Origin: a virus
Length of the DNA: 48,051 nucleotides
Reading direction: 5' to 3' (one strand)
Virus record (IMG/VR): IMGVR_UViG_3300044833_000307
Location: 1 to 48,051 of that record
This document shows, one piece after another, positions 539 through 42,042 of the stretch. The translations under genes and the position numbers were made by a program. Positions within the stretch are counted from its first letter, which is position 1; each line of letters opens with the position of its first letter. The notes below the pieces were generated by a model. The model did no database searches. It saw only the letters and a list, made by a program, of their open reading frames with translations, and was not told the DNA's origin.

Positions 539-844
539 TCACCAACTCTTGGGGTCGTCCTTATACCCGTACACCAGTCGTCCGTCAACAGAAACAGGAT
601 TTCCAGATTTTTCGTTGTCTGGTTCCCCTTTGGGGTAGCGTTCGTAGTGTTCTTCCATGATGATGTCGTTCCACTCCCCGATAATCGCATTGACTGCATC
701 AATAGCGTCCTGTGCGTCTTTTCGTAGCCTCTTGACCGTGGGGCTGTTAAGATAGTCGTCCAGTATCTTCGCGCGGCGGTCGTACTCTTCGTTGGCTATT
801 TTGTCTCGTCTTTTATTGTCCGCGAGCCGTTCAGTTCTGGTCAT
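539..844 (-). CDS. hypothetical protein, 101 aa
   Basis: Begins MTRTERLADNKRRDK and is highly charged, with a predicted helical or coiled N-terminal half (residues about 1-60) and a short C-terminal tail ending in DDPKSW. The ATG overlaps the TGA of the upstream 233-aa gene by four bases (ATGA), so the two are translationally coupled. It is the last gene of the unit that starts at the promoter at 3559-3587. I see no motif that identifies a function. Confidence 0.75.
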   Translation of the reverse strand: MTRTERLADNKRRDKIANEEYDRRAKILDDYLNSPTVKRLRKDAQDAIDAVNAIIGEWNDIIMEEHYERYPKGEPDNEKSGNPVSVDGRLVYGYKDDPKSW

Positions 845-1542
845 GGTTGGGCCGACAGAACCCTGAAGGTGTCGGGGGCGGCCGCCTCGGTGGCTTCGGC
901 AAGCATGTCCCCGTCGTCGCCGTGCCGCTCGCCCGTCCCGTTCGGCGAAAACAGTACAGCGTCATAAGCCGAGTCCACCGAGAACATCCCGTCGATCTCG
1001 ATGGGGTCCAACTCGTCCTTGAGGCCCAGCAAGGCGCTGAGGGTGTCCTCGAACTCGGCCAGCCGTGCTTCCATCCCCTTGCGAGTCACGGCGATATCCG
1101 CCACCGTCTGCACCAGCGGGTGCAGTTGCGCCTCGATGTCGTCGCTCATGCGCTTCAGCCTGGCGTCGGAGGCGTTGCGGAAACACGTCAGGGCCTTCTG
1201 AAGCTCGATCTTGAGGTCGATCTTCCGTGCCCGCTCCACGGCGGCCAGCTTGGTGGCGTCCGTGGCCTCGTGCCCGAATTCCAATTGTTCGTCGCCCATC
1301 CCCATGGTCGCGGCTGGTTTATCGAGCGCATCACGGTCAAGGGAATGATTGAGGGCCTCGGTCAGCCCCGACGCGCGGCTGGCCTCGTTGGCCAGCCCGG
1401 TGTGAAGATTGTCGTCGTTCGGCCCGTGCAGGAAACTGACCTCCGGCCGCGTCCCGGCGAGCGGCTCATTGGCTTTGGTGCGCGGCACGCGCTTCCCTCG
1501 GGAAGCCACCCGCTTGACCTTGGCGTTCGCTTTCTTTGCCAT
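841..1542 (-). CDS. hypothetical protein with basic N-terminal tail, 233 aa
   Basis: The start ATG at 1542 has GGAGTAAA just upstream. The first 25 residues are strongly basic (KKANAKVKRVASRGKR), as in nucleic-acid-binding or nuclear-targeting-like tails. The rest is acidic and largely helical, with a probable coiled-coil region around residues 100-180. No recognised domain. It overlaps the following 101-aa gene by ATGA and follows the small membrane protein at 1544 without a gap. Confidence 0.75.
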   Translation of the reverse strand: MAKKANAKVKRVASRGKRVPRTKANEPLAGTRPEVSFLHGPNDDNLHTGLANEASRASGLTEALNHSLDRDALDKPAATMGMGDEQLEFGHEATDATKLAAVERARKIDLKIELQKALTCFRNASDARLKRMSDDIEAQLHPLVQTVADIAVTRKGMEARLAEFEDTLSALLGLKDELDPIEIDGMFSVDSAYDAVLFSPNGTGERHGDDGDMLAEATEAAAPDTFRVLSAQP

Positions 1543-1543
1543 T

Positions 1544-1708
1544 TTACTCCTTCTTCAATTCCTGCTTCAATTCGACCCCGGACTTGTTGTCCGTTGGCTG
1601 CTGCGTCTGGCGGTGCCAGCGGACTAGCAGCAGGCCGATGACCAACAGCCCAAGCCACGCGAAGAGCTTTGCGTACGACACGTCGCCGTGCTTGTCCCTG
1701 ATGATCAT
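1544..1708 (-). CDS. small single-pass membrane protein, 54 aa
   Basis: Starts MIIRDKHGDVSYAK and has one hydrophobic segment (LFAWLGLLVIGLLLV, about residues 15-29), then a basic and polar C-terminal half ending ELKKE. I chose the ATG at 1708 because the longer frame would run through the tRNA gene. There is no Shine-Dalgarno, but an AGTATTA box ends six bases before this ATG, as also seen at 9107 and 33782. Size and topology would fit a holin, spanin or membrane-anchored accessory protein, but nothing decides between them. Confidence 0.6.
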   Translation of the reverse strand: MIIRDKHGDVSYAKLFAWLGLLVIGLLLVRWHRQTQQPTDNKSGVELKQELKKE

Positions 1709-1714
1709 CGAAGC

Positions 1715-1721
1715 TAATACT
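1715..1721 (-). promoter_or_regulatory. AGTATTA box ending six bases before a start codon
   Basis: On the minus strand AGTATTA lies with six bases between it and the ATG at 1708. The embedded TATTAG resembles a -10 hexamer that would start transcription at or next to the ATG, giving a leaderless mRNA. The same spacing occurs at 9107-9113 and 33782-33788. Confidence 0.4.
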
Positions 1722-1728
1722 CGAAATT

Positions 1729-1805
1729 TGGCGCGCCCGGTGAGAGTCGAACTCACGTTCGCGAATTTAGAGTTCGCAGCTTTGGCCAGACTAAGCTACG
1801 GGCGC
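1729..1805 (-). tRNA. amber-reading (suppressor) tRNA, anticodon CUA
   Basis: A complete 77-nt cloverleaf with encoded CCA. The acceptor GCGCCCG (1805-1799) pairs with CGGGCGC (1739-1733), with discriminator G and CCA at 1731-1729. T8 and A9 are present. The D stem is GCTT/AAGC with a GG-containing loop. The anticodon stem is GCGAA/TTCGC with loop CTCTAAA, so the anticodon is CTA. The variable loop is GAAC, and the T arm is GTGAG, TTCGACT, CTCAC. CUA pairs with UAG. Discriminator G73 argues against tyrosine or leucine charging and is compatible with Gln, Trp, Asp or Asn; the amino acid is not decided here. It lies in the transcription unit of two genes that contain in-frame UAG (2545 and 3444). 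Confidence 0.95.
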
Positions 1806-1910
1806 GCCGAGGGCGGCAAACTGACTTAGGGTTTTCTCGGTTTAAGCCCTGCCGCCGCCGTCGCAGAGCCCCACTGTGGGGTAGCCTAATCGCCGTGCGT
1901 ACCTAGATAG

Positions 1911-1958
1911 CACGATGCCGCCGGGACAGTCCGTCTAGGGGTGTGCCCAGCATCGTGC
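1911..1958 (-). ncRNA. junction-like structured RNA element upstream of the tRNA
   Basis: On the minus strand GCACGATGC (1958-1950) pairs perfectly with GCATCGTGC (1919-1911). Between them are two smaller hairpins (GGG/CCC with loop CACA, and a GGAC/TCC stem), giving a three-way-junction shape. A TATTGT hexamer (1966-1961) lies just ahead, so transcription could begin exactly at the outer stem. Further CCCCA/TGGGG and GGCAGGG/CCC pairings occur between 1810 and 1900. It may be a processing signal, a riboswitch or a ribozyme for the tRNA precursor. I cannot assign a family. Confidence 0.4.
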
Positions 1959-1974
1959 ATACAATACCACGTCT

Positions 1975-2553
1975 TCAGAATTTAGCCACCATCCTTTTCC
2001 CGACCTTGGCCAACTGCTTGAGCTTGATCTTGAAGCCGTCGCTGTCAAGCTGCCCCAGGCGGTTGGCGTTGGAGTGGATTTCCGCGAGGCCCGTGAGAAC
2101 CAAGGACGGGGCCTCTTTGTGCAGCAAAAACGGCTCGATGGCGTCCCCCTTGACCGTGTGGGCCAGCATGTCCATGCGGATGAGTTCGCCGACCTGCCCG
2201 TCCTCCTGGGTCTCGGCGTAACGCATCCACGTGCGGTGGCTGGTTTCCGCGTGACCGGGGAAGTGCTGGCGGTTTTCCACATCCACCTCGCGACAAAAAG
2301 GCTTGCCACAGTCGTGGTACATCTGGTAGGTTCTCAAAATGTCAAGCGGCAACAACCGCTGGGCCAGTCCCGGATGCCCGACCCATTCGGGTAGACGCCA
2401 CTGCAAGTGCGTTGGAGTTCCTTGTGAAACATGTGCGTACAAATCGAGGAACCATGCGTGAACATCCAATCCGTGGTCCTTAACGGACCACGACTCCCAC
2501 TGCCAGCAGGTGCGCATCGCTTCGTCCAGTCTGTTCAGGTTTGCCTATGTCAT
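1975..2553 (-). CDS. HD-domain phosphohydrolase-like protein with in-frame UAG at codon 3
   Basis: The start ATG at 2553 overlaps the TGA of the preceding gene (ATGA) and has GGAGGAAGAAGAA directly upstream, the best ribosome binding site nearby. Codon 3 is TAG (2547-2545), after which the frame stays open to TGA at 1975: MT, amber, ANLNRLDEAMRTCWQWESW onwards, 192 codons. An HD-type metal site is suggested by YHDCGKP (H80, D81), HFPGH (H97, H101) and MDMLAH (D128, H132), the order seen in HD phosphohydrolases. If UAG were only a stop, translation would have to restart at ATG 2517, which has at best a weak GGA. The nearby CUA tRNA makes read-through the simpler reading. The substrate is unknown. 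Confidence 0.7.
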
Positions 2554-2717
2554 TTCTTCTTCCTCCATAAAGTTACAGCCCCGTGTTTTTTGCCGTGGCC
2601 GTATTCCCAATAAAAATACGCCGTCCTGCCGATTTTCAAGACCATGCGCCACGCCGGGAAATTGCTGAGCCCGATGCGCAGCCCGTCTTGCCACATGCAG
2701 TAGGGCGGGAACTTCAC
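2550..2717 (-). CDS. hypothetical protein, 55 aa, GTG start
   Basis: The GTG overlaps the TGA of the upstream 130-aa gene (GTGA). The sequence MKFPPYCMWQDGLRIG is followed by LSNFPAWRMVLKIGRTAYFY and a basic end (LWRKKK). It is rich in aromatic residues and looks like a compact beta fold. Its TGA overlaps the ATG of the HD gene (ATGA). These tight overlaps on both sides support its being real and support the HD start at 2553. Function unknown. Confidence 0.75.
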   Translation of the reverse strand: MKFPPYCMWQDGLRIGLSNFPAWRMVLKIGRTAYFYWEYGHGKKHGAVTLWRKKK

Positions 2718-3106
2718 CGCTTGCCCCAGTTCGGGTATTGCTCCCAGCCGGGGTTGTCGAACAGCGCCTTGAGTTTGTCAGGGCACTTTTCAAGCTTCCT
2801 TTGCCACGGCCGCATCTTGCGCTTGCGGGCGACGAAAAGCTCCGGCGCGTATAGAATGGTGAAGTGGTCCTTGTCCGCCGCGTCCAACGCCGCGCACTCC
2901 TCGAACGCTCTGCGGAACTCGGGGATGTCTTCTTCGGCGATTTCCTCCGCGTCCGCTCCGGGGTAGAAGAAGTCGTTGCAGTTAACGAGGAAGGTGACGG
3001 GGTCGTACCGCGGGGCGTCGCACCTCCACCAGAACGCCTCGCAATGGTCGTGCTCCGAGGCTATGGCCAGCAGTTCAAGCACTGCACCGGGGTTCTTAAT
3101 CGGCAT
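2714..3106 (-). CDS. hypothetical protein, 130 aa
   Basis: Start ATG at 3106 with GGAGGACCGA upstream. The protein has an acidic central part and aromatic clusters (CEAFWWRCDAPRYD, then VTFLVNCNDFFYPGADAEEI) typical of a phage accessory protein family I have seen only as unnamed. It overlaps the end of the PTH2-like gene by 11 bases and shares a GTGA overlap with the next gene, so it is inside the same operon. Confidence 0.8.
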   Translation of the reverse strand: MPIKNPGAVLELLAIASEHDHCEAFWWRCDAPRYDPVTFLVNCNDFFYPGADAEEIAEEDIPEFRRAFEECAALDAADKDHFTILYAPELFVARKRKMRPWQRKLEKCPDKLKALFDNPGWEQYPNWGKR

Positions 3107-3545
3107 TCGGTCCTCCTTGTTGCCAAGTCTTGTACAAGAACATGGCCTTGCGCTGCTTGGAATTCTCGATGGGGACGGTGGCGATGGCGCTCAAACCCAT
3201 GTCGAAGTCCGGCTCGACAAAAGCTTCGTGCGCGATCTTGTAGCGGATCAGTCTCTGGATGGCGGCTTCGAGGGCTGGCTTGTCGGGGAGTCCGATGACG
3301 ACCACGGAAGGAGTTTCGTCCGAAGAGACTTCGGCTTTTCTTGCGAGGCGGGACGCCATCTGGAAGGTGGCGTGATTGGTTTGAACCAACTGCTGCGCGA
3401 GAGGGAGGTCCTGCCGCACGAACACGTAAAAATAAGGGTTTACCTACGCCACGTCTGTGTCTTTCCTGCCAGGATCGGGCAGCACGTCGGTCGTATAAAT
3501 GTCATACTGGCTTTTCTTGGCCGGTCCCATGATGGTGTCTTTCAT
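3096..3545 (-). CDS. PTH2-like peptidyl-tRNA hydrolase-family protein with in-frame UAG at codon 34
   Basis: The ATG at 3545 has GAGGACAAT upstream and begins MKDTIMGPAKKSQYDIYTTD. Codon 34 is TAG (3446-3444). The same frame then continues VNPYFYVFVRQDLPLAQQ and ends in TAA (149 residues). The part after UAG matches the PTH2 fold: first strand and turn YVFVRQDL, helix with QTNHA, and a late FDMGLSAIAT segment like the D-x-G-x-T signature. PTH2 enzymes release peptides from peptidyl-tRNA. Starting after the UAG would require a GTG (3425) with no ribosome binding site and would cut into strand 1. Reading UAG as sense therefore gives the intact fold. It is the first gene behind the promoter at 3559-3587 and is co-directional with the CUA tRNA. 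Confidence 0.75.
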
Positions 3546-3558
3546 ATTGTCCTCAAAC

Positions 3559-3587
3559 AAGATACTCGAAGTCGGGACTTTTGTCAA
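3559..3587 (-). promoter_or_regulatory. sigma70-type promoter with very short leader
   Basis: On the minus strand TTGACA (3587-3582, 6 of 6) is followed after 17 bases by TATCTT (3564-3559, 4 of 6). The predicted start near 3553 leaves a leader of about eight bases (AGGACAAT) before the ATG of the PTH2-like gene, so the ribosome binding site would sit at the very 5' end. It should drive the unit containing both UAG-bearing genes and the suppressor tRNA. Confidence 0.7.
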
Positions 3588-6207: not shown

Positions 6208-6475
6208 CTTGCCGTGTTGAGGAACTCAGGCACGGCCTGAGGCTACCTTAAGCGGCAGCGGCCATTGCAAGAGGAGCAGTGGCGTTTATTGGTTTTGTTC
6301 ATTTACGGGAGTTTACTCCCCGGCCCGTGTGCATCCCACGCTTGCAGTCCGTCGAAACCAATTCGGCCCCGCAGAAGTGATACGGGGTAAATGGTGGAGC
6401 CGGGGGTAATCGAAACCCCGTCCGAAAAGCCGCTTAGGTGCCGTGACCTTCCTTGCGGAAGGGAGTTACGAGCGT
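6174..6475 (-). ncRNA. ssrA: circularly permuted (two-piece) tmRNA
   Basis: In transcription order the acceptor piece comes first. It has a CCTTCC/GGAAGG hairpin with a GCAA loop, TTTTCGGACGGGG, T-loop TTCGATT, then CGGCTCC, A, CCA ending at 6392. A 21-nt intervening segment (6391-6371) follows. The coding piece starts at 6370 with GGGGCCG and GGTTTCGACGG, the classic tmRNA 5' end. GGGGCCG pairs with CGGCTCC including the usual G-U at position 3. A tag frame, probably GCC (6283) to TAA (6248), reads ATAPLAMAAAA and ends in the small hydrophobic residues expected of a protease tag. After it comes an H-type pseudoknot (6241-6212: CTCAGG, loop CCGTG, CCTGAG, then CACGG). A terminator closes it. 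This order is the permuted form. The resume codon is inferred. Confidence 0.93.
6248..6283 (-). other. tmRNA tag-peptide reading frame
   Basis: Inside the tmRNA coding piece the frame ending at TAA 6250-6248 reads back as A-A-A-A-M-A-L-P-A-T-A. The likely resume codon is GCC after AATAAAC. An upstream TGA in this frame limits the tag to at most 17 codons. The alanine-rich hydrophobic end fits a ClpXP-type degradation signal. Confidence 0.75.
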
Positions 6476-6510: not shown

Positions 6511-7635
6511 CTACTCAGGAAGTCCGGGTTTCAATGGTTCCACGTCGATGGTCGGTCCCTGCCGTTTTGCTGGCGGTCTACTGTACTTACTGAGCCCAGA
6601 TTTTTGGAGATAATCCTTCAGTTCCGCTAGCGTGGTGCCCTCGCCCTTGGGCTTCTCGAACCATGAGTGTTTCCAGCCATCGGAATAAACGCGGATGGCG
6701 TTCATGGCGGCAGCCGGGGGATAGAACGTGGAATACCCGACCTTTCCCCAGCCCAAGGTGTTCATGAAGCGAACCATGTCCTCGAATTCGTCGTCAAATA
6801 TGGCGTCCGGTTCCACGGCTGCTTTATGCCGTCCTTGGCAGACGGTGCAGCGGGCTGCCAATGTTTCATCGCGATGCTCGGGGCAGGTGGGCTTGCCACA
6901 ATCTCCACAGAATTCGAGGGACATCCCGGCATCGGGATGCGTGCTCACGTGGGATTTGCAAATGTGGCAGACATCGTGTTCGATGCCCTGCTCGTCCGTG
7001 TAATGGTAGTCGAACGCGGCGGCGAACAAACGGGTTTGGTCTTTCGTCCCGATGGTGATTTGACGCTCGATATTCCGGACGATCCGCGCCTTGATTTCCG
7101 AGGCCTTTTCGTCTTCCTTATTGTCCCTCGGCTCGTACTGCGTCTCCACCTTGCCTGTCCTCTCCTCCACCCAGAAGAACGTGTACACCCCCTCGTTTCT
7201 TTTTTCCTCGGAGTCGGGGCTGAAATAAAACGCGGCGTTGTGATCCGCCCGCCGGGCTTCCTCGAACGTGTGCACCTCGATGACTTCGCCGTCCTCCACT
7301 CTGGCGACTCCCGACCAGAACTTTTGCCCCTTCCACGTGCCGCGGTTCTCCGGGCCCAGCCCATCCTCGTAAATTTTGTACGCGAGCTTCGAACGTCGGG
7401 TGTATTTGGCGATGGAGCGGACGGCTTCCTTCAATTGCCGGGGGTCGAGACCGCCGCGCTCCGCCCAAGCGCCGATGTGGCGTCCGGTGTTGCCATGGGT
7501 GCGCAGGTAGTCGGCCGCCGGACGGGCGTATCCGCTGACATAGGCCGCCCGCACGGAGACGAACAATTTCCGTGAGCCGATGGGGAACTCCTGAATGGTA
7601 GTGCGCTTGGCTTTCTTGAGGAGGAGGGAATCCAC
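6511..7635 (-). CDS. hypothetical zinc-finger protein, 374 aa
   Basis: GTG start at 7635 with AGGAG seven bases upstream; begins MDSLLLKKAKRTTIQEFPIG. The middle holds a cysteine-rich region of treble-clef or ring type: CHIC, then CGDCGKPTCPEH, then CTVC (about residues 222-270), which should bind two zinc ions. The N-terminal half is mixed alpha/beta with a KGQKFWSGVARVEDGEV segment. The C-terminus is proline-rich and basic. The stop is TAG, followed seven codons later by an in-frame TGA, so suppression would add only LQNPVF after the inserted residue. Function unknown; nucleic-acid or protein binding is likely. Confidence 0.75.
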   Translation of the reverse strand: MDSLLLKKAKRTTIQEFPIGSRKLFVSVRAAYVSGYARPAADYLRTHGNTGRHIGAWAERGGLDPRQLKEAVRSIAKYTRRSKLAYKIYEDGLGPENRGTWKGQKFWSGVARVEDGEVIEVHTFEEARRADHNAAFYFSPDSEEKRNEGVYTFFWVEERTGKVETQYEPRDNKEDEKASEIKARIVRNIERQITIGTKDQTRLFAAAFDYHYTDEQGIEHDVCHICKSHVSTHPDAGMSLEFCGDCGKPTCPEHRDETLAARCTVCQGRHKAAVEPDAIFDDEFEDMVRFMNTLGWGKVGYSTFYPPAAAMNAIRVYSDGWKHSWFEKPKGEGTTLAELKDYLQKSGLSKYSRPPAKRQGPTIDVEPLKPGLPE

Positions 7636-17458: not shown

Positions 17459-18240
17459 GAATTCATCCGCAAAGTGAATCCCAGCGGCGTGGTGCTGCCC
17501 GTGTACGAGGTGCACAAGGCGCTGACCCGCACGGTGGTGGGGTCGTCGGGGTCTATGACCGCGCTCACATCGACGATGTCCTTCAATATCTCCGCCGGGT
17601 CCAGGGCCTGCACGGTGGATTGCGCCTGCTGCACCTGCTGCAAGCGGGACAACGCATTTATGACCTGCGTCTGGATGTCGGTGTCCGTAAGGTAGATACC
17701 GAGTTTCTGGCCGATGTAGGACTTAAGCTGGCAGATAAAAGTGGGGTAGAAGGGGCAACTGGAGGTGAGCAGCCACTTCAAGGCCTTCTGGGCCAGCTTG
17801 ACGTTTTGCACCACGTGCAGGAACCCCCCAGAGGACTGCTTCAAGTCGTTCAAAACGCCGAGGGCGCTGCACTTCAGGCAGTACTGCTGGCGGCTGATGT
17901 AGCTGACCTCGATGAGCGGCAGCACCAGGCGCACCGGGTGGTTGAATGCTATCTTGTAGAAAATGTCGCTGGTCACGGCGATGCGGTTCTCGTCCACGCT
18001 GACTTGCCATCCGTACGTCGGGTCGCCCGGCAGGACCTCCTCCTGGGAAATCCACATCTGGACGGAGTCGGCCCCGTTGATCGGGGCGCGGGTGTTGATG
18101 GCGGTGTTCCCCGCGTAGTTCAGGGTGCGGAAATCCGTCTGGTTGACCACGTACCGCTCGAAGGACTGCTGGTGGTCGCACGCCCCCACGGGCGTGGAGG
18201 TGCTGGGCTGTACGGTCAAAGTGTTGTAGTCGTAGCTAAT
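17455..18240 (-). CDS. virion structural protein, about 261 aa, probable ATT start
   Basis: The frame has no ATG or GTG at its natural beginning. GAGGAG lies seven bases before ATT (18240), giving (M)SYDYNTLTVQPSTSTPVG, a natural-looking start overlapping the TAG of the previous gene as ATTAG. The only other option nearby is TTG 18219 with no ribosome binding site. The body has ADSVQMWISQEEVLPGDPTY, a CLKCSALG pair of cysteines and a helical Q-rich segment. The C-terminus is beta-rich (VRVSALCTSYTGSTTPLG). Its position next to the J-like gene suggests a baseplate wedge protein; not identified further. Confidence 0.65.
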   Translation of the reverse strand: MSYDYNTLTVQPSTSTPVGACDHQQSFERYVVNQTDFRTLNYAGNTAINTRAPINGADSVQMWISQEEVLPGDPTYGWQVSVDENRIAVTSDIFYKIAFNHPVRLVLPLIEVSYISRQQYCLKCSALGVLNDLKQSSGGFLHVVQNVKLAQKALKWLLTSSCPFYPTFICQLKSYIGQKLGIYLTDTDIQTQVINALSRLQQVQQAQSTVQALDPAEILKDIVDVSAVIDPDDPTTVRVSALCTSYTGSTTPLGFTLRMNS

Positions 18241-18907
18241 GTTGAAGCTCCTCTTTGCTCACCACGGCCGCGCCGGGCTTGGCCGCGCGCCCCGCTTGCT
18301 CGATCTCCCATTGCGTGGGGGCGTCGAGTTGGTGCACGCGGAAGCGCGGTTGCGTCGATCCCGCCGGGTACACGTCCCCGGTGTCGTTCACTAGAACGGC
18401 GTCGTATTCCGGCTTCTTGAAGTAGCTGTTTATCTTGGTCAGCAGGAGCGAAAGGCTGCGCTGCGGGTGGTTCAGGGCCTCGAAGGCGTTCTCGGCCTTA
18501 TCCTCTTGTTTCTCAATGAGATTGCGGGCATGGTTCATGTGGAACACCGCCTCGTCCTGCCGTTGAAGCTGCTCCCGCATGTAGTCCTTGACCTGCGCCA
18601 TGGCGACCATCGGCAGATGGTCCTCGCGCCACTGGTAGGGGAAATACCCCTGCGGCCCTGGCTGCCATGTGGGCTTCTTGAAGGTCGGGGCCAGTGGCTC
18701 GTCGTTGAGCTTCCGGTAGAATTGCTCCAGGGCCCCCGAGGTCTTGCGAAGCTGCGCGGCGCGGATTTGATGGAACTGCTGCACGGCCGCCAGATTGCCC
18801 TTGCGGGCGTTGACCCAGTCCTGGAAGGCCGTCTGCTGGGACTGGCTGTGGTGCCCGAGGAAGTTGAACGGCGGGCCGCTGTACCCGTAGATGTAGTTGT
18901 TTGCCAT
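18236..18907 (-). CDS. virion-associated hypothetical protein, 223 aa
   Basis: Begins MANNYIYGYSGPPFNFLGHH and is then mainly helical, with a coiled region (QVKDYMREQLQRQDEAVFHM; NLIEKQEDKAENAFEALNH) and a beta C-terminus. The stop is TAG, with no close back-up stop: suppression would add roughly 170 residues in a frame that overlaps the next gene. It lies between a fibre gene and baseplate genes. Function unknown. Confidence 0.7.
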   Translation of the reverse strand: MANNYIYGYSGPPFNFLGHHSQSQQTAFQDWVNARKGNLAAVQQFHQIRAAQLRKTSGALEQFYRKLNDEPLAPTFKKPTWQPGPQGYFPYQWREDHLPMVAMAQVKDYMREQLQRQDEAVFHMNHARNLIEKQEDKAENAFEALNHPQRSLSLLLTKINSYFKKPEYDAVLVNDTGDVYPAGSTQPRFRVHQLDAPTQWEIEQAGRAAKPGAAVVSKEELQH

Positions 18908-37023: not shown

Positions 37024-39368
37024 TAGGCGTTCTCCTCGCCGGGCGCGGGGATTTGCCCGCCTTGGTTGTTCACGATGTCCGGGGCCTCGGTCGTGTCGCG
37101 CACGAGCGACATGCTGACCTTCTTTTGCTGCGTGGAGATGTCGTCGGTCTTCGTGACGTGCAGCCGTGTGGCGCACTCGGTGATCCAGTCGCCCGTGCAG
37201 TGGTATTGCAGGTGCCCCATGTGGGTGATGTCTATGTCACCTTGGATTTCAAGCCGCAAGGCCTTGCCTTGCTTGTTGGGCTTGATCGTGATCTCGCAGC
37301 CCCCGAACAGGCTGGCCGTGACGGAGCGCCCCTGCGCGTCCGCGCCGACCGTCGCGACGAGGCCGCCGTCCGTGTCGATGAGGATCGACTGCTGGGAGAC
37401 GGGGTTGCTGCCGACGCGGATGAGCATGTCGCTGGTGGAGTGCAGGTCGAGGGACAGCCCGTGCTGGTCCATGGGCGAGTTGCCGAGCCCTGCTCCAGGC
37501 ACGGGGGTGCCGCTCCACGAAGCGATGTTGTAGGGCGGAAAATTGAGAGTCGGCTGCCCTGCGAGAGCAAGGTCGTGAAAAGCGTAGTTGCTGTCGCCAG
37601 CGCCGTAATTAGGACGGCCGGGCGAGTGAGAGTCAACGCGGTTCGGGTCGCCCACCGCATAAGGAATCTTGCCCTGCCCGTCTTGGTATCCATTTTTGAG
37701 GTGCCGTCGCTTGGCAGCAGGATTGCGACCGCCGAGGCGAACAACAGCAGCGCCGTCGAGGGCGGCACGGAGTGAGACATTTTCGGCTCCTATTTTGTTG
37801 TAGCCCTGCGCGTTCACCCCGGAATCGCCGGGGCTCAACTTCACATGGCTGCCGTCCCAGTATTGAAGTTGCCGCTTGTCGGAGGCGTCCCCCTTCTCGC
37901 GGCTCTGGGTGTGCACCGTGCGGCGGGCGTTCGGCAAAGAGGTGTCGTCCGCGCCCAAGCGGATCACTGCTTGGCCCAGCGCCTGGATGTCGAGGGCTTC
38001 TTCTTCGTCCCGGTTCTTGCCCACCACCAGCTTGGCGGAGCCCACCAGATGGGCCTCCAAGGAACGCCCCGCGCCGTGCGCGTTTTCATAAGCGCCGTCG
38101 CCTATCCCCACGTTTTCCTTGGGCAGCGTGGAGCCGATTTCCAGGCTGGTGAAGCCTTCCTTCGTCACGTCCAGCCGGGTGGTGTTGTACTCGTAGGGGA
38201 AGCGGATGCTCATGCACGAAGCGGCGAGGCGGGCCTCCACGTGGTCGGCGGATTCCGTGACGGGCATGTGGCCGGAATCCACGTCGGCCCCGAAGCGCGA
38301 GTAAAACAACGCGGGCTTGAGGACTTGCCCGTACGTGCTCTTGTCGAAAATGTTGTGGCCCACCAGCGTGCCTTGGGACTTTTCAAGGATGTAGCCACGG
38401 CGGGCGGGCGTCGCGCCTTCGGCGAGCGCCGGGCCGACGGGCTTGGTCTTGGTGTTGTACGGGTGGTCCCATTGCTGCGAAGCCATGAATGTCTGGCTGT
38501 CGCTCGCCACCTGCCCGCTGGGGGACGTGACCGTGGTGCGGGTCCACGGGCTGGCCACCGTGCCGAGGATCGCATCCAGCAGGCTCGTCTGGATGGATTC
38601 GATGGGCGGGACGTAGTCGAGGGCGAACTCCTGCACCAGTTCCGTGGCCTCGGAGAACGGGATCACGTCCGGCTTGCCGTCCACATAACGATCCGATGGC
38701 TGGGAGCCGGGCTGCAAATACGAAACGAATTCCTGCGTCCCGTCCGGCAGGGTGACGCCGGGTATGTTGGGGGCGTTGGGGCGGTTCACCGGGCCGTGGT
38801 AGCTCACCCCCGCGCCCGTGAGGCTGACGTTGCGCCCCGTGACGTGCGTGCGGGTGCGGCGATCCGCGTCCAGCTTGTCGCGGCTGAAGTCCGAGCCCAG
38901 GCGGTCCCAGTCCTGGTCGATCTTTTCCGAGTACCCCCCGGTGTAGCTGGAGGTGCGCTGCCCCGGATAGGCTTTGCGGTACGTGCCGCGCAGGCGATCC
39001 GACCAGCCCTGCATCTCCGAGCCCTCCACGCCCCGCTGGGCCACGGCGTCGATGTTGTTGATCTGGTCGCTGTTGATCCAGCTAATGATGATTACTTGGC
39101 TGAAGCCCAGGCTGTAGTTGATGTGCATCGCCACGCAGGACGAGAATTGCTCCGGCATGTTGATGTCGATGCCCGTGGATGAGGAGGTGTTCGAAGGCCA
39201 CTGGCGGATGTCCGTGTAGACGCCCTTGGTGCCCACGTCCTCGATGGCGAGGACGTGCCGCTCGTAATCGACCGTGAGCACGCGCCCGATGAAGGGCGCG
39301 AACTTGAGGGCGTCCCGCTCGCGGGCGAGCGGCCCCGGATGGTAAAGCTGCGTGTTGTCGCTAACCAT
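37023..39368 (-). CDS. baseplate central spike / gp5-VgrG-like protein, 781 aa
   Basis: Begins MVSDNTQLYHPGPLARERDA. Residues about 25-60 (FIGRVLTVDYERHVLAIEDV) look like the OB-fold of gp5/VgrG-type hub-spike proteins. The C-terminal third has the spike's beta rungs: SILIDTDGGLVATVGADAQG, RSVTASLFGGCEITIKPNKQ, GKALRLEIQGDIDITHMG. These proteins sit at the tip of the tail tube and pierce the cell envelope. The start overlaps the last codons of the hub gene, whose stop is TAG (ATGGTTAG). Confidence 0.75.
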   Translation of the reverse strand: MVSDNTQLYHPGPLARERDALKFAPFIGRVLTVDYERHVLAIEDVGTKGVYTDIRQWPSNTSSSTGIDINMPEQFSSCVAMHINYSLGFSQVIIISWINSDQINNIDAVAQRGVEGSEMQGWSDRLRGTYRKAYPGQRTSSYTGGYSEKIDQDWDRLGSDFSRDKLDADRRTRTHVTGRNVSLTGAGVSYHGPVNRPNAPNIPGVTLPDGTQEFVSYLQPGSQPSDRYVDGKPDVIPFSEATELVQEFALDYVPPIESIQTSLLDAILGTVASPWTRTTVTSPSGQVASDSQTFMASQQWDHPYNTKTKPVGPALAEGATPARRGYILEKSQGTLVGHNIFDKSTYGQVLKPALFYSRFGADVDSGHMPVTESADHVEARLAASCMSIRFPYEYNTTRLDVTKEGFTSLEIGSTLPKENVGIGDGAYENAHGAGRSLEAHLVGSAKLVVGKNRDEEEALDIQALGQAVIRLGADDTSLPNARRTVHTQSREKGDASDKRQLQYWDGSHVKLSPGDSGVNAQGYNKIGAENVSLRAALDGAAVVRLGGRNPAAKRRHLKNGYQDGQGKIPYAVGDPNRVDSHSPGRPNYGAGDSNYAFHDLALAGQPTLNFPPYNIASWSGTPVPGAGLGNSPMDQHGLSLDLHSTSDMLIRVGSNPVSQQSILIDTDGGLVATVGADAQGRSVTASLFGGCEITIKPNKQGKALRLEIQGDIDITHMGHLQYHCTGDWITECATRLHVTKTDDISTQQKKVSMSLVRDTTEAPDIVNNQGGQIPAPGEENA

Positions 39369-42042
39369 TGTTGACTATGCTCTTCAATTTCTGCGCCGCC
39401 CATTGCACGCTTGTGGGAGTGGCATTCACGTCCGGCGTGGCGGAAAGCTGCTGCTGCGCCTGCCGCGCCCCGACTTTGGGCGAAACCTGCCCACTGACTA
39501 ATACCGTGATAAGCTGCTGTTCGGTGGGGACGGTGTTGGCCAGTTGCAGGGCGGCGGCCCGATTTTGAATGTCCGGCTGGGCGGCGTTCAGCAATTGCTT
39601 GTCCCCGCCGCTCTGGGGTTGGGAGTAGTCCAGCACGATGACTGTGTCGGTCTCCGCTTGGTTCTGCAACTGGGCCAAGGCCGCGATCAGCGCATTCGAG
39701 GGGCTGTCCGTGGCCGTGGGGGTGCCCAGCCCCGCGAACAAAAACGACTCCGTGGCGTTCAACACGCTGATGTCCTGCTGGTTGGTCGTGGGGTTGCCGT
39801 TCACGTCCGTGCGCGGCGCGATGTACCCGTCCTCGGTGAATTCCTTTATCGTTTCGCGGAGGTTGCGCCAGCGGCCCCATGGGAAGGGGGCGAGCACCTC
39901 GTAGCCGTTTTTGTCGGTGAACGGGATCGTGCCGCGCTGGAGATCGACGAAGTACGAGTTGTCCACGCGGCGCGGATGGTCCCAGTAGCCGGAGCCCGCT
40001 CGCGGGCTGGACACCGGAAGGCCTAGGGAGCCGTATACCGGGGCAGCCCCGCTGTTCTTCGCCGTCCCGTGCTGGCTGGAGCCGTCCGGCACCACGACGT
40101 AGCTCGAAGTGGGGGTGTCGGGCTGCATGTTCCACGAGGACGCCAAGCGTTGCGACCGCTGGGTCTGGAGGATGTTGTCGTGCGTCGAGGGGCTGTAGCC
40201 CGGAGGGGTGGTCAGGGTCGCCGCCTGGCCCACGGGGTTGGCCGGATTGGGCGGGACGGAGAAGAGCGACTGGAAGCGGGCGAGATTGTTCCCCGAGGAC
40301 TGGTTGGGGTCGGGGCCCGTCTTGGCCGTGAAGTTGGATTTCGTGAACTGGTAGACGAGGTTCTGGGAACTCGTGTAGCGCGTGTAGGGCACGCCGTCCG
40401 TGGACTTCGCCGACTGCGGCACCAGCACGCGCTTGCGGATGGAGTCGCACACCACCGTCATGACGGCCGTGCCCCCGACTTGGTAGGCGGTGTTGACGCT
40501 CTTGATGTACCCGTACATGTCCTTGTGCGGGAAGTACATGGGGAAGCCGATCTTCAGTTCCGGGCGCATCGGGATGGTCACCGTGTAGGTGCGGTAGCCG
40601 CGGTTGGCCCGCACGGTCTCGCAGACGGCGTGGGAGAACAGCGTGACCTTGTCCTGGTCCTGAATCCACGGTATCTGCAAGGTGGGCTCCTCACGCAGCC
40701 CGAATTGTTGCAGCTTGGGTATGTCGATCCAGTCCGCGGTGCCGAGCCAAGTCTTCCCCAGCCCCATCTGGAGGGACGGCATGAGGCTGCCCTGCACCGC
40801 GCAGCGAGTCTTGCGGACGGCCGCTTCGTCCTCCGTCTCGTTCTCCGTGAGGATTTCCGACAGGTGCACGACGAAGGGGTTGGTGTTCTCATTGATTTCC
40901 GTCAGCGGGTTGCTGGCGCTGGAGTACGGGTCTCCGCTGCCCGCCTTGTCGGGCGAGGTGCTGACGTTCCGGGGGCCGAGGTCCGTGACATCGAGGTTGT
41001 ACAGCGGCGGCTTGATGATGATCTTGCCATCGATGTCCTGGTAGGCCTCGAAGGAGATAATCTGGACCAGCTTGCGCAGGTGCTCCAAGCGGGTGACAAT
41101 GCGGTTGTTCAGAAGGCTGGGCCCGGTGATCTTCGATTCCGGGGCGAAGTCGCGAATTTTCAGGTAGTACAGGTCATCCAATTTTTGGGCGGTGTTTTGC
41201 GTGGGCATGGCCGCGTTCGCCGCGGGCTGCAAGTCCTTCCCCCCGTCGCCCTGCACCTCGGATGGCTTGGTCTTGAGGCCCTCGGTGACGCGGTCCTTGT
41301 ACGACGTGCCGTAGATGTGGATGTCCTTGGCGAGGTTGTTCAAGACGGCGTTCCACTTGACGATGAAGCCGCCAGCGACCGCGCCGTGGAAGGGGTCGCT
41401 TTCGAGGCCGGGGGTGGACTGGCCGATGGCGTCCTGCGTAAAAATCGAAGTGTCCAGCGCGTCGGTCAGCATGGCGGCGATGATCTCGTAGGGGTTGTTG
41501 TCGGCGTACTTGGTGTCTTGGTACTGGATGGCGACGTTGTTGTCCACGGCGGACTGAATGGACGGGTTGAGGTTCACTTGCATCAACTCCAAGAAGTGCA
41601 TCGTCCCGTGGCACTGCACCGAAATCTCCAGGGTCTTTCCGTTGTCGTTGTAGCCGATGTGGCCGACCACGCCCTTGAACACCCGGCGGTACACCGTCTC
41701 CCCGTGGTTGGCGAGGTAGTAGCCCTTGGCGAAGACTTGGATTTCCATCATCGTGCGGATGAGGTTGTTGCCGCCGGGCATCATGAACAGGTGCTTCAGG
41801 TAATTGGGCACTTGCAGCCCGATGGACGCGCTGGGGACCATGATGTCCGTGTCGCACAGGCAGTTGAAGGCCGTCACGAAATCGTTGAAGTTGACGATGC
41901 TGTAGTGCGCCATCGTGTTGGGGTCGTCGATGAAGTAGTTCAGCAAGTACGGGAGCCCGTCGAGGTACACTACTATGTCCGGCGCGGTCTTGACGATCTC
42001 CCGCTCTTGGACGGTTTGCGATATGTTGCGGATGCCGGGCAT
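39361..42042 (-). CDS. baseplate hub protein (gp27/late-control-D-like), 893 aa
   Basis: Begins MPGIRNISQTVQEREIVKTA and has ILEISVQCHGTMHFL-type segments and a central domain with RTYTVTIPMRPELKIGFPMY, FPHKDMYGYIKSVNTAYQVG and AVMTVVCDSIRKRVLV. This is the pattern of hub proteins that form the ring joining tail tube and spike ('G-D-x-I...GxIxxV.H.....G...T.l'). A 300-residue C-terminal extension is predicted disordered (NPANPVGQAATLTTPPGYSP) and then helical, Q-rich. It is TAATG-coupled to the gene before it. The stop is TAG with no back-up nearby. Confidence 0.7.
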   Translation of the reverse strand: MPGIRNISQTVQEREIVKTAPDIVVYLDGLPYLLNYFIDDPNTMAHYSIVNFNDFVTAFNCLCDTDIMVPSASIGLQVPNYLKHLFMMPGGNNLIRTMMEIQVFAKGYYLANHGETVYRRVFKGVVGHIGYNDNGKTLEISVQCHGTMHFLELMQVNLNPSIQSAVDNNVAIQYQDTKYADNNPYEIIAAMLTDALDTSIFTQDAIGQSTPGLESDPFHGAVAGGFIVKWNAVLNNLAKDIHIYGTSYKDRVTEGLKTKPSEVQGDGGKDLQPAANAAMPTQNTAQKLDDLYYLKIRDFAPESKITGPSLLNNRIVTRLEHLRKLVQIISFEAYQDIDGKIIIKPPLYNLDVTDLGPRNVSTSPDKAGSGDPYSSASNPLTEINENTNPFVVHLSEILTENETEDEAAVRKTRCAVQGSLMPSLQMGLGKTWLGTADWIDIPKLQQFGLREEPTLQIPWIQDQDKVTLFSHAVCETVRANRGYRTYTVTIPMRPELKIGFPMYFPHKDMYGYIKSVNTAYQVGGTAVMTVVCDSIRKRVLVPQSAKSTDGVPYTRYTSSQNLVYQFTKSNFTAKTGPDPNQSSGNNLARFQSLFSVPPNPANPVGQAATLTTPPGYSPSTHDNILQTQRSQRLASSWNMQPDTPTSSYVVVPDGSSQHGTAKNSGAAPVYGSLGLPVSSPRAGSGYWDHPRRVDNSYFVDLQRGTIPFTDKNGYEVLAPFPWGRWRNLRETIKEFTEDGYIAPRTDVNGNPTTNQQDISVLNATESFLFAGLGTPTATDSPSNALIAALAQLQNQAETDTVIVLDYSQPQSGGDKQLLNAAQPDIQNRAAALQLANTVPTEQQLITVLVSGQVSPKVGARQAQQQLSATPDVNATPTSVQWAAQKLKSIVNNG

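Follow-up and report, generated by a model that had tools for sequence, protein, structure and literature searches.

Why would a virus encode a tRNA with the anticodon CUA on the same strand as two genes whose reading frames are interrupted by UAG ahead of the main domain? The question is raised by a 48,051-base virus record (62% GC), called the window here. Its minus strand carries, one after another, a promoter-like site, a Pth2-like gene (peptidyl-tRNA hydrolase 2 fold), two ORFs that lack such a stop, a gene for an HD-domain protein, and the CUA tRNA. We consider it very likely that both interrupted genes are explained by a translational gate operated by the suppressor tRNA; readthrough itself is inferred, without expression data.

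The two UAG-interrupted genes and the CUA tRNA of the window

The tRNA (1729..1805, minus strand), which we presume to be a UAG-reading suppressor, was called by ARAGORN, and Rfam agrees, with a match to the tRNA family (RF00005) at 63.0 bits and E 2e-11; the fold is a standard cloverleaf with a 5-bp anticodon stem, a two-base linker and an encoded CCA. The first-pass annotation of this DNA had described a complete CUA tRNA, two genes on the same strand with an in-frame UAG before the domain, and a region between 539 and 3545 in which no gene uses UAG as its stop. All of this was borne out: the two UAG codons are read at 3444-3446 and 2545-2547 (minus strand), and none of the likely genes in 539-3545 is terminated by UAG. 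Outside this region UAG does end large ORFs of the window, namely 6511-7635, 18236-18907 and 39361-42042 (-).

The Pth2-like gene occupies 3096..3452 on the minus strand and ends with UAA (3098-3096). Its 5' end reads GTG (3452-3450) GCG UAG GTA AAC CCT TAT TTT TAC, and the gating UAG (3444..3446, minus strand) is codon 3 when counted from GTG 3452. This UAG had earlier been placed at codon 34 of the protein, which is probably wrong; codon 3 is likelier, since the relative at locus L023 reads ATG GCA UAG GTT CAG CAC CCC, and GTG 3452-3450 is therefore probably the start, with ATG 3545-3543 still possible. The AlphaFold2 (AF2) model of the protein has a pLDDT of 89.6, and a Foldseek search with this model gave Pth2 structures (AF2095, MJ0051, Bit1) as the top PDB matches; the matches at E<=0.001 are all to Pth2/Bit1 or to closely related structures. 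A profile search matched PDB 24bt at E 0.002, and a Pfam search of the protein returned nothing at E 0.1. R10, D12, Q17, Q21 and H24 are invariant in the alignment with homologues; these residues were not mapped to the active site. Judged from the model, the product looks like a protein of the Pth2 fold, which points to tRNA metabolism; its enzymatic activity is inferred.

The HD-domain gene (1975..2553, minus strand; ATG 2553-2551, stop UGA 1977-1975) is preceded by a strong Shine-Dalgarno sequence, GGAGGAAGAAGAAATG, and its 5' region reads GGAGGAAGAAGAA ATG ACA UAG GCA AAC, with the gating UAG (2545..2547, minus strand) again as codon 3. The protein falls into PHROG 14850 (phrog_14850, E 5.6e-41), and its AF2 model (pLDDT 94.6) has as its best PDB match 3wfo, a tRNA processing enzyme (E 7e-3, prob 1.00). 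Both the HD motif and the fold are present, with H77 D78, H98, D125 and H129 invariant in the alignment; a nucleotidyltransferase domain linked to HD is absent, the HD domain being either stand-alone or fused to Pth2 only. As far as the model goes, the protein looks closest to the HD domain of a tRNA processing enzyme, again pointing to tRNA metabolism, with the activity inferred. HD proteins also share an invariant Met ~10 residues past the gate, which is a possible alternative start.

Between the gated genes lie two ORFs without a gate (2714-3106 and 2550-2717, together spanning 2550..3106 on the same minus strand), which had no match in family searches. A sigma-70-like promoter candidate, TTGACA-17-TATCTT, lies upstream of the gated gene set (3559..3587, minus strand); it had been put forward as the promoter that leads this set, and the 10/12 match stands, but the candidate is weak evidence because a scan finds 2 such sites where shuffles yield 1.1. 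The 10-mer TAGGYAAACC is present at both UAG sites of the window (2 matches vs 0.04 expected); it was rejected as a cis readthrough signal, being missing from L002 and L003, the sole other loci searched.

Conservation of the early stop and its match to phage tRNAs

Homologues were collected from phage isolates and from IMG/VR scans, which added 80 Pth2 loci and 80 HD loci; dereplication at 90% identity left 113 Pth2 and 83 HD genes. A gene was counted as gated if its start codon is followed 1-12 codons later by a stop and then by the domain, without ATG, GTG or TTG between stop and domain. By this definition 72/113 Pth2 genes are gated (70 by UAG, 1 by UGA and 1 by UAA), as are 55/83 HD genes (53 by UAG, 2 by UGA); over both families the gate stop is UAG in 123/127, UGA in 3 and UAA in 1. 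The gate stands at codon 2-5 in 68/72 Pth2 and 47/55 HD genes, mostly at codon 3 or 4. A Shine-Dalgarno 4-mer is found upstream of the gated start in 90/127, and the base at +4, following the gate stop, is a purine in 118/127 and T in none; this purine is the sole general context feature of the gates. The remaining 41 Pth2 genes vary in which stop comes nearest upstream (16 UGA, 14 UAG, 11 UAA). The order of start, stop and domain is conserved in two non-homologous proteins that bear the same device, and the recurrence of the same in-frame UAG in dozens of diverged homologues places it beyond chance. The gate counts are not independent events, because homologues share descent.

Among the isolates, M-A-H/Q-UAG or M-T-H-UAG is found in Kaldavass, XbC2, GAP32, CBB and the Eneladusviruses, M-L-UAG in Arash and M-T-UAG in ME3. 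HD-Pth2 fusions carry the gate only once (XacN1, RAS14 and pT24, the last from a profile search; M-K-UAG), and in XacN1 the module is ORF364, with ATG AAG UAG ACC upstream of the annotated start. Ungated HD genes of L003, L061, ME3 and the Arash group adjoin a gated Pth2 gene, directly downstream of it; we infer that translational coupling to the gated gene could serve them. Standard gene callers truncate or miss gated genes: in public annotation the Pth2 gene is shortened or missing in GAP32, CBB, SNUABM_19 and BF, and the HD gene of this group, which has an internal UAG, is split.

Some further observations at these and related loci can be added. A third gated family, with an M-T-UAG start (SVKEAAE.../DVKEAAE...), lies close to CUA tRNAs in L002 (7793-8254) and L023 (9966 onward); a search of relatives found none beyond these two related phages. 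The HD gene of Mimasvirus and Eneladusvirus (L004-L009) has a UAG within the domain (ELDTG-UAG-GDP), at a place where Arash has Val. HD homologues on megaplasmids (L201-L205; 0.7-1.3 Mb, including pMPPla107 and pBASL58) are ungated and, in the annotated records, are located near a gene called aminoacyl-tRNA hydrolase. The window encodes a phage permuted (two-piece) tmRNA (6248-6451, minus strand; Rfam RF04321, 93.8 bits), and L002, L019, L021, L023, L024, L026, L028, L030 and L031 likewise have tmRNA calls upstream of their gated Pth2 gene.

Judged from sequence, the identity of the gate stop follows the anticodon of the phage tRNA, with LR745206 and L356 as exceptions. UGA gates occur in both genes of L337 (ATG GAA TCG UGA; ATG ACA TGG TCG UGA) and in the HD gene of L281 and L282. 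The whole contigs of these three phages carry UCA tRNAs (2 in L337, 342.6 kb; 2 in L281, 184.9 kb; 1 in L282, 112.4 kb) and no CUA tRNA; the UCA tRNAs are 76-78 bases long, a length that is not selenocysteine-like. The three cases are possibly not three independent switches. CUA tRNAs, in turn, are present in the UAG-gated XacN1, GAP32, SNUABM_19, RAS14 and pT24, and also in the fetched parts of the L290 contig and of LR756511. Within the fetched neighbourhood (~8-16 kb for most loci), a CUA tRNA accompanies 49/70 UAG-gated Pth2 genes, and at many of the other loci it could sit outside the fetched flank. The same tRNA is found near 17/41 ungated Pth2 homologues, so it may have other uses there. 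No amino acid could be assigned to the suppressor tRNAs by isotype, as their bodies are too diverse.

The full genome of RaK2 encodes no stop-reading tRNA, and the annotated start of its gene is an ATG that follows the UAG. In LR745206 (L018), a complete record of 634,780 bases, both genes are gated by UAG, and the search for a CUA tRNA gave a pseudo-tRNA call at 507344 and nothing confident. In L356, a Neisseriaceae MAG contig, a Pth2-like gene (~3650) has the gate ATG CAT TAA; the pieces read of this incomplete MAG yielded no UUA tRNA.

Readings of the early stop

A CUA tRNA in the window, together with the use of code 15 by many jumbo phages (PMC13037316), would also be in line with a genome-wide reassignment of UAG (code 15 or similar), where the two genes merely happen to use this codon. 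We give this very little credence, since UAG terminates in these genomes: it ends 7/261 long ORFs in GAP32, 4/255 in SNUABM_19, 12/242 in XacN1, 15/169 in pT24 and 3/22 in the window; across LR745206 and the UAG-gated isolates that were checked, the share of long ORFs with this stop is 1.6-9%. If UAG is read as sense, the coding coverage barely shifts in most of these genomes, with gains in ORF coverage of ~0.2 to 3 points in the genomes checked and of 6 in XacN1. UAG clusters at the beginning of genes that belong to specific families, within their first few codons, and a partial scan found few other genes with a conserved internal UAG. When we scanned for a Shine-Dalgarno, a start, 0-3 codons, a stop and a 60-codon ORF without an early start, 60 UAG, 28 UGA and 19 UAA cases were obtained, and the UAG cases come mostly from the Pth2 and HD families, with the third family of L002 and L023 in addition; because the loci had been chosen for Pth2 matches, this is not an unbiased genome survey. 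UAG is an ordinary stop in these genomes, which are therefore not code 15, and no genome-wide recoding is apparent. Annotators have shortened or skipped the gated genes, as would be expected if the in-frame stops were pseudogene lesions or sequencing errors, but this can practically be dismissed: the stop is in the same position in isolates and in independent metagenome assemblies, and the domains are intact and under purifying selection.

Translation might instead begin downstream of the stop, by reinitiation or from a non-canonical start, with the short start-stop ORF serving as a leader minigene that tunes initiation. The invariant Met of the HD proteins would allow this, RaK2 and L033 have an ATG just past the UAG, and in L281, where a GTG follows immediately after the UGA, a restart is possible; there is also precedent for minigenes, among them lambda bar, with a link to peptidyl-tRNA hydrolase. 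We nevertheless find a downstream start improbable to a high degree. Homologues that all start after the UAG would have refuted readthrough, and the contrary was seen in 72 non-redundant Pth2 genes that have no ATG, GTG or TTG from the stop to the domain, with the reservation that this absence is part of the definition by which gated genes were counted. Differences between relatives from gate to domain fall mainly on third codon positions (positions 1/2/3: 317/209/586 in Pth2 and 321/182/429 in HD); pairs of relatives overlap, and the counts are thus descriptive. Within the limits of such a sequence comparison, this shows that the stretch right after the gate stop is translated and under coding selection. 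The stop of a leader, moreover, need not be UAG, nor need it be UGA in phages with a UGA-reading tRNA. A different role for the minigene is autoregulation by sensing of termination, in which start-X-UAG would give dipeptidyl-tRNA drop-off or slow termination, the Pth2/HD enzymes would act on it, and suppression and the levels of peptidyl-tRNA or release factor would jointly set expression, a scheme comparable to the autoregulation of prfB. That the gated product itself has a peptidyl-tRNA hydrolase fold fits such a loop, and so does the stop at codon 2-5, where drop-off is frequent (PMC10192219). The HD gene, which has the same gate and yet is no peptidyl-tRNA hydrolase, does not fit, and we regard the loop as unlikely while keeping it in mind; it would in any case add to a tRNA gate and not exclude it.

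The proposed gate and related systems

The reading that we favour is the gate operated by the phage tRNA. Both genes would be transcribed with ordinary ribosome-binding sites, and with the stop at about codon 3, ribosomes would terminate after 1-12 residues as long as the matching phage tRNA is lacking. After transcription and processing, and once charged with an amino acid, this tRNA (CUA for UAG, UCA for UGA) would compete with the release factor and allow the protein to be made; output would require the mRNA together with a functional phage tRNA, as in an AND gate. Because both genes and the tRNA are arranged in order on one strand, we suggest that the element in the window is probably a coherent feed-forward loop of this AND type. 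The first-pass annotation had proposed that UAG keeps the two proteins from being made in the absence of the suppressor tRNA, and this gains support from the homologues, the match of stop and anticodon, RaK2 and the codon bias, with no expression data; its further idea, a built-in delay or feedback, is an inference. The occurrence of readthrough, its efficiency, the amino acid inserted, the purpose of the gate and the dependence of expression on the tRNA are inferred only.

As to the purpose, both outputs resemble enzymes of tRNA maintenance (a peptidyl-tRNA hydrolase and an HD domain), and for this reason we speculate, without leaning towards it, that the gate holds back and doses enzymes that act on tRNA and might do harm, until the phage has a functional tRNA pool. 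Alternatively, the gate may provide feedback through peptidyl-tRNA; this is not distinguished from holding back a harmful activity. The diverse tRNA bodies suggest that the inserted residue matters less than insertion itself, which is likewise an inference. In more general terms, we think there is a reasonable case that giant phages use dedicated suppressor tRNAs to switch, in trans, a small regulon of tRNA-maintenance genes with an early stop, in an amber (UAG/CUA) and an opal (UGA/UCA) form, that their expression reports how functional the phage tRNA pool is, and that this is a widespread and previously unrecognised principle. Such a gate would link stop-codon readthrough with tRNA quality control.

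Recoding of stop codons by phage suppressor tRNAs is known as code 15 and has been described in crAss-like, Lak and jumbo phages (PMC13037316, PMC9523058, PMC7162821). There, too, a phage CUA tRNA reads UAG in phage genes and possibly times their expression; the present case differs in that UAG is a normal terminator, that a single stop lies at codon 2-5 of two tRNA-metabolism genes, and that UGA/UCA variants exist. The nearest designed analogue is a synthetic coherent feed-forward loop with a suppressor tRNA, the 'leak dampener' (PMC7969014). Its output needs transcription of a gene with a nonsense codon as well as the suppressor tRNA, and opal stops work too. That circuit was engineered, whereas in phages the gate would be of natural origin, with tRNA-related enzymes under its control; it suggests a natural counterpart of the synthetic circuit, conserved across very different jumbo phages. 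In the decoding of pyrrolysine (UAG) and selenocysteine (UGA), a dedicated tRNA likewise reads an in-frame stop in few genes, but the phage tRNAs are ordinary, with diverse bodies, and their stop lies close to the start codon, away from any catalytic residue. tRNA-Pyl is recognised by a 6-bp anticodon stem and a single base between the acceptor and D stems; with its 5-bp stem and two-base linker, the CUA tRNA of the window fails this architecture. The prfB gene (RF2) has an in-frame UGA early in a translation-factor gene and is autoregulated through frameshifting and the level of RF2. The likeness lies in an early in-frame stop that acts as a sensor in such a gene; the phage gate, in contrast, keeps the frame, and its sensor is the tRNA.

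No account of phage genes gated by a start-proximal stop turned up in searches of open-access literature, and absence there is no proof of novelty. The gate offers an answer to a published puzzle, that of phage tRNAs which read stop codons and have no identifiable target, as in XacN1 and Summit. In the XacN1 study, extending annotated genes past 18 amber stops revealed no target (PMC5852040), an approach that left out codon-3 stops upstream of annotated starts; the target is probably the gated HD/Pth2 fusion ORF364. For RsoM2USA, several targets of the suppressor tRNA have been assumed (PMC8504454), and in the report on Summit the purpose of the suppressor tRNA is given as unknown (PMC9022506). 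Summit was considered as a further carrier of gated Pth2/HD genes and rejected, as it is absent from the Pth2/HD matches and only a short ORF beginning with start-AAG-UAG was seen. This ORF, at ~49.45 kb of the Summit record MZ326862 (L199/L200), reads ATG AAG TAG GTC TAC AAG CCG CCG TAA, has a good Shine-Dalgarno, and lies just upstream of gp69 and the suppressor tRNA.
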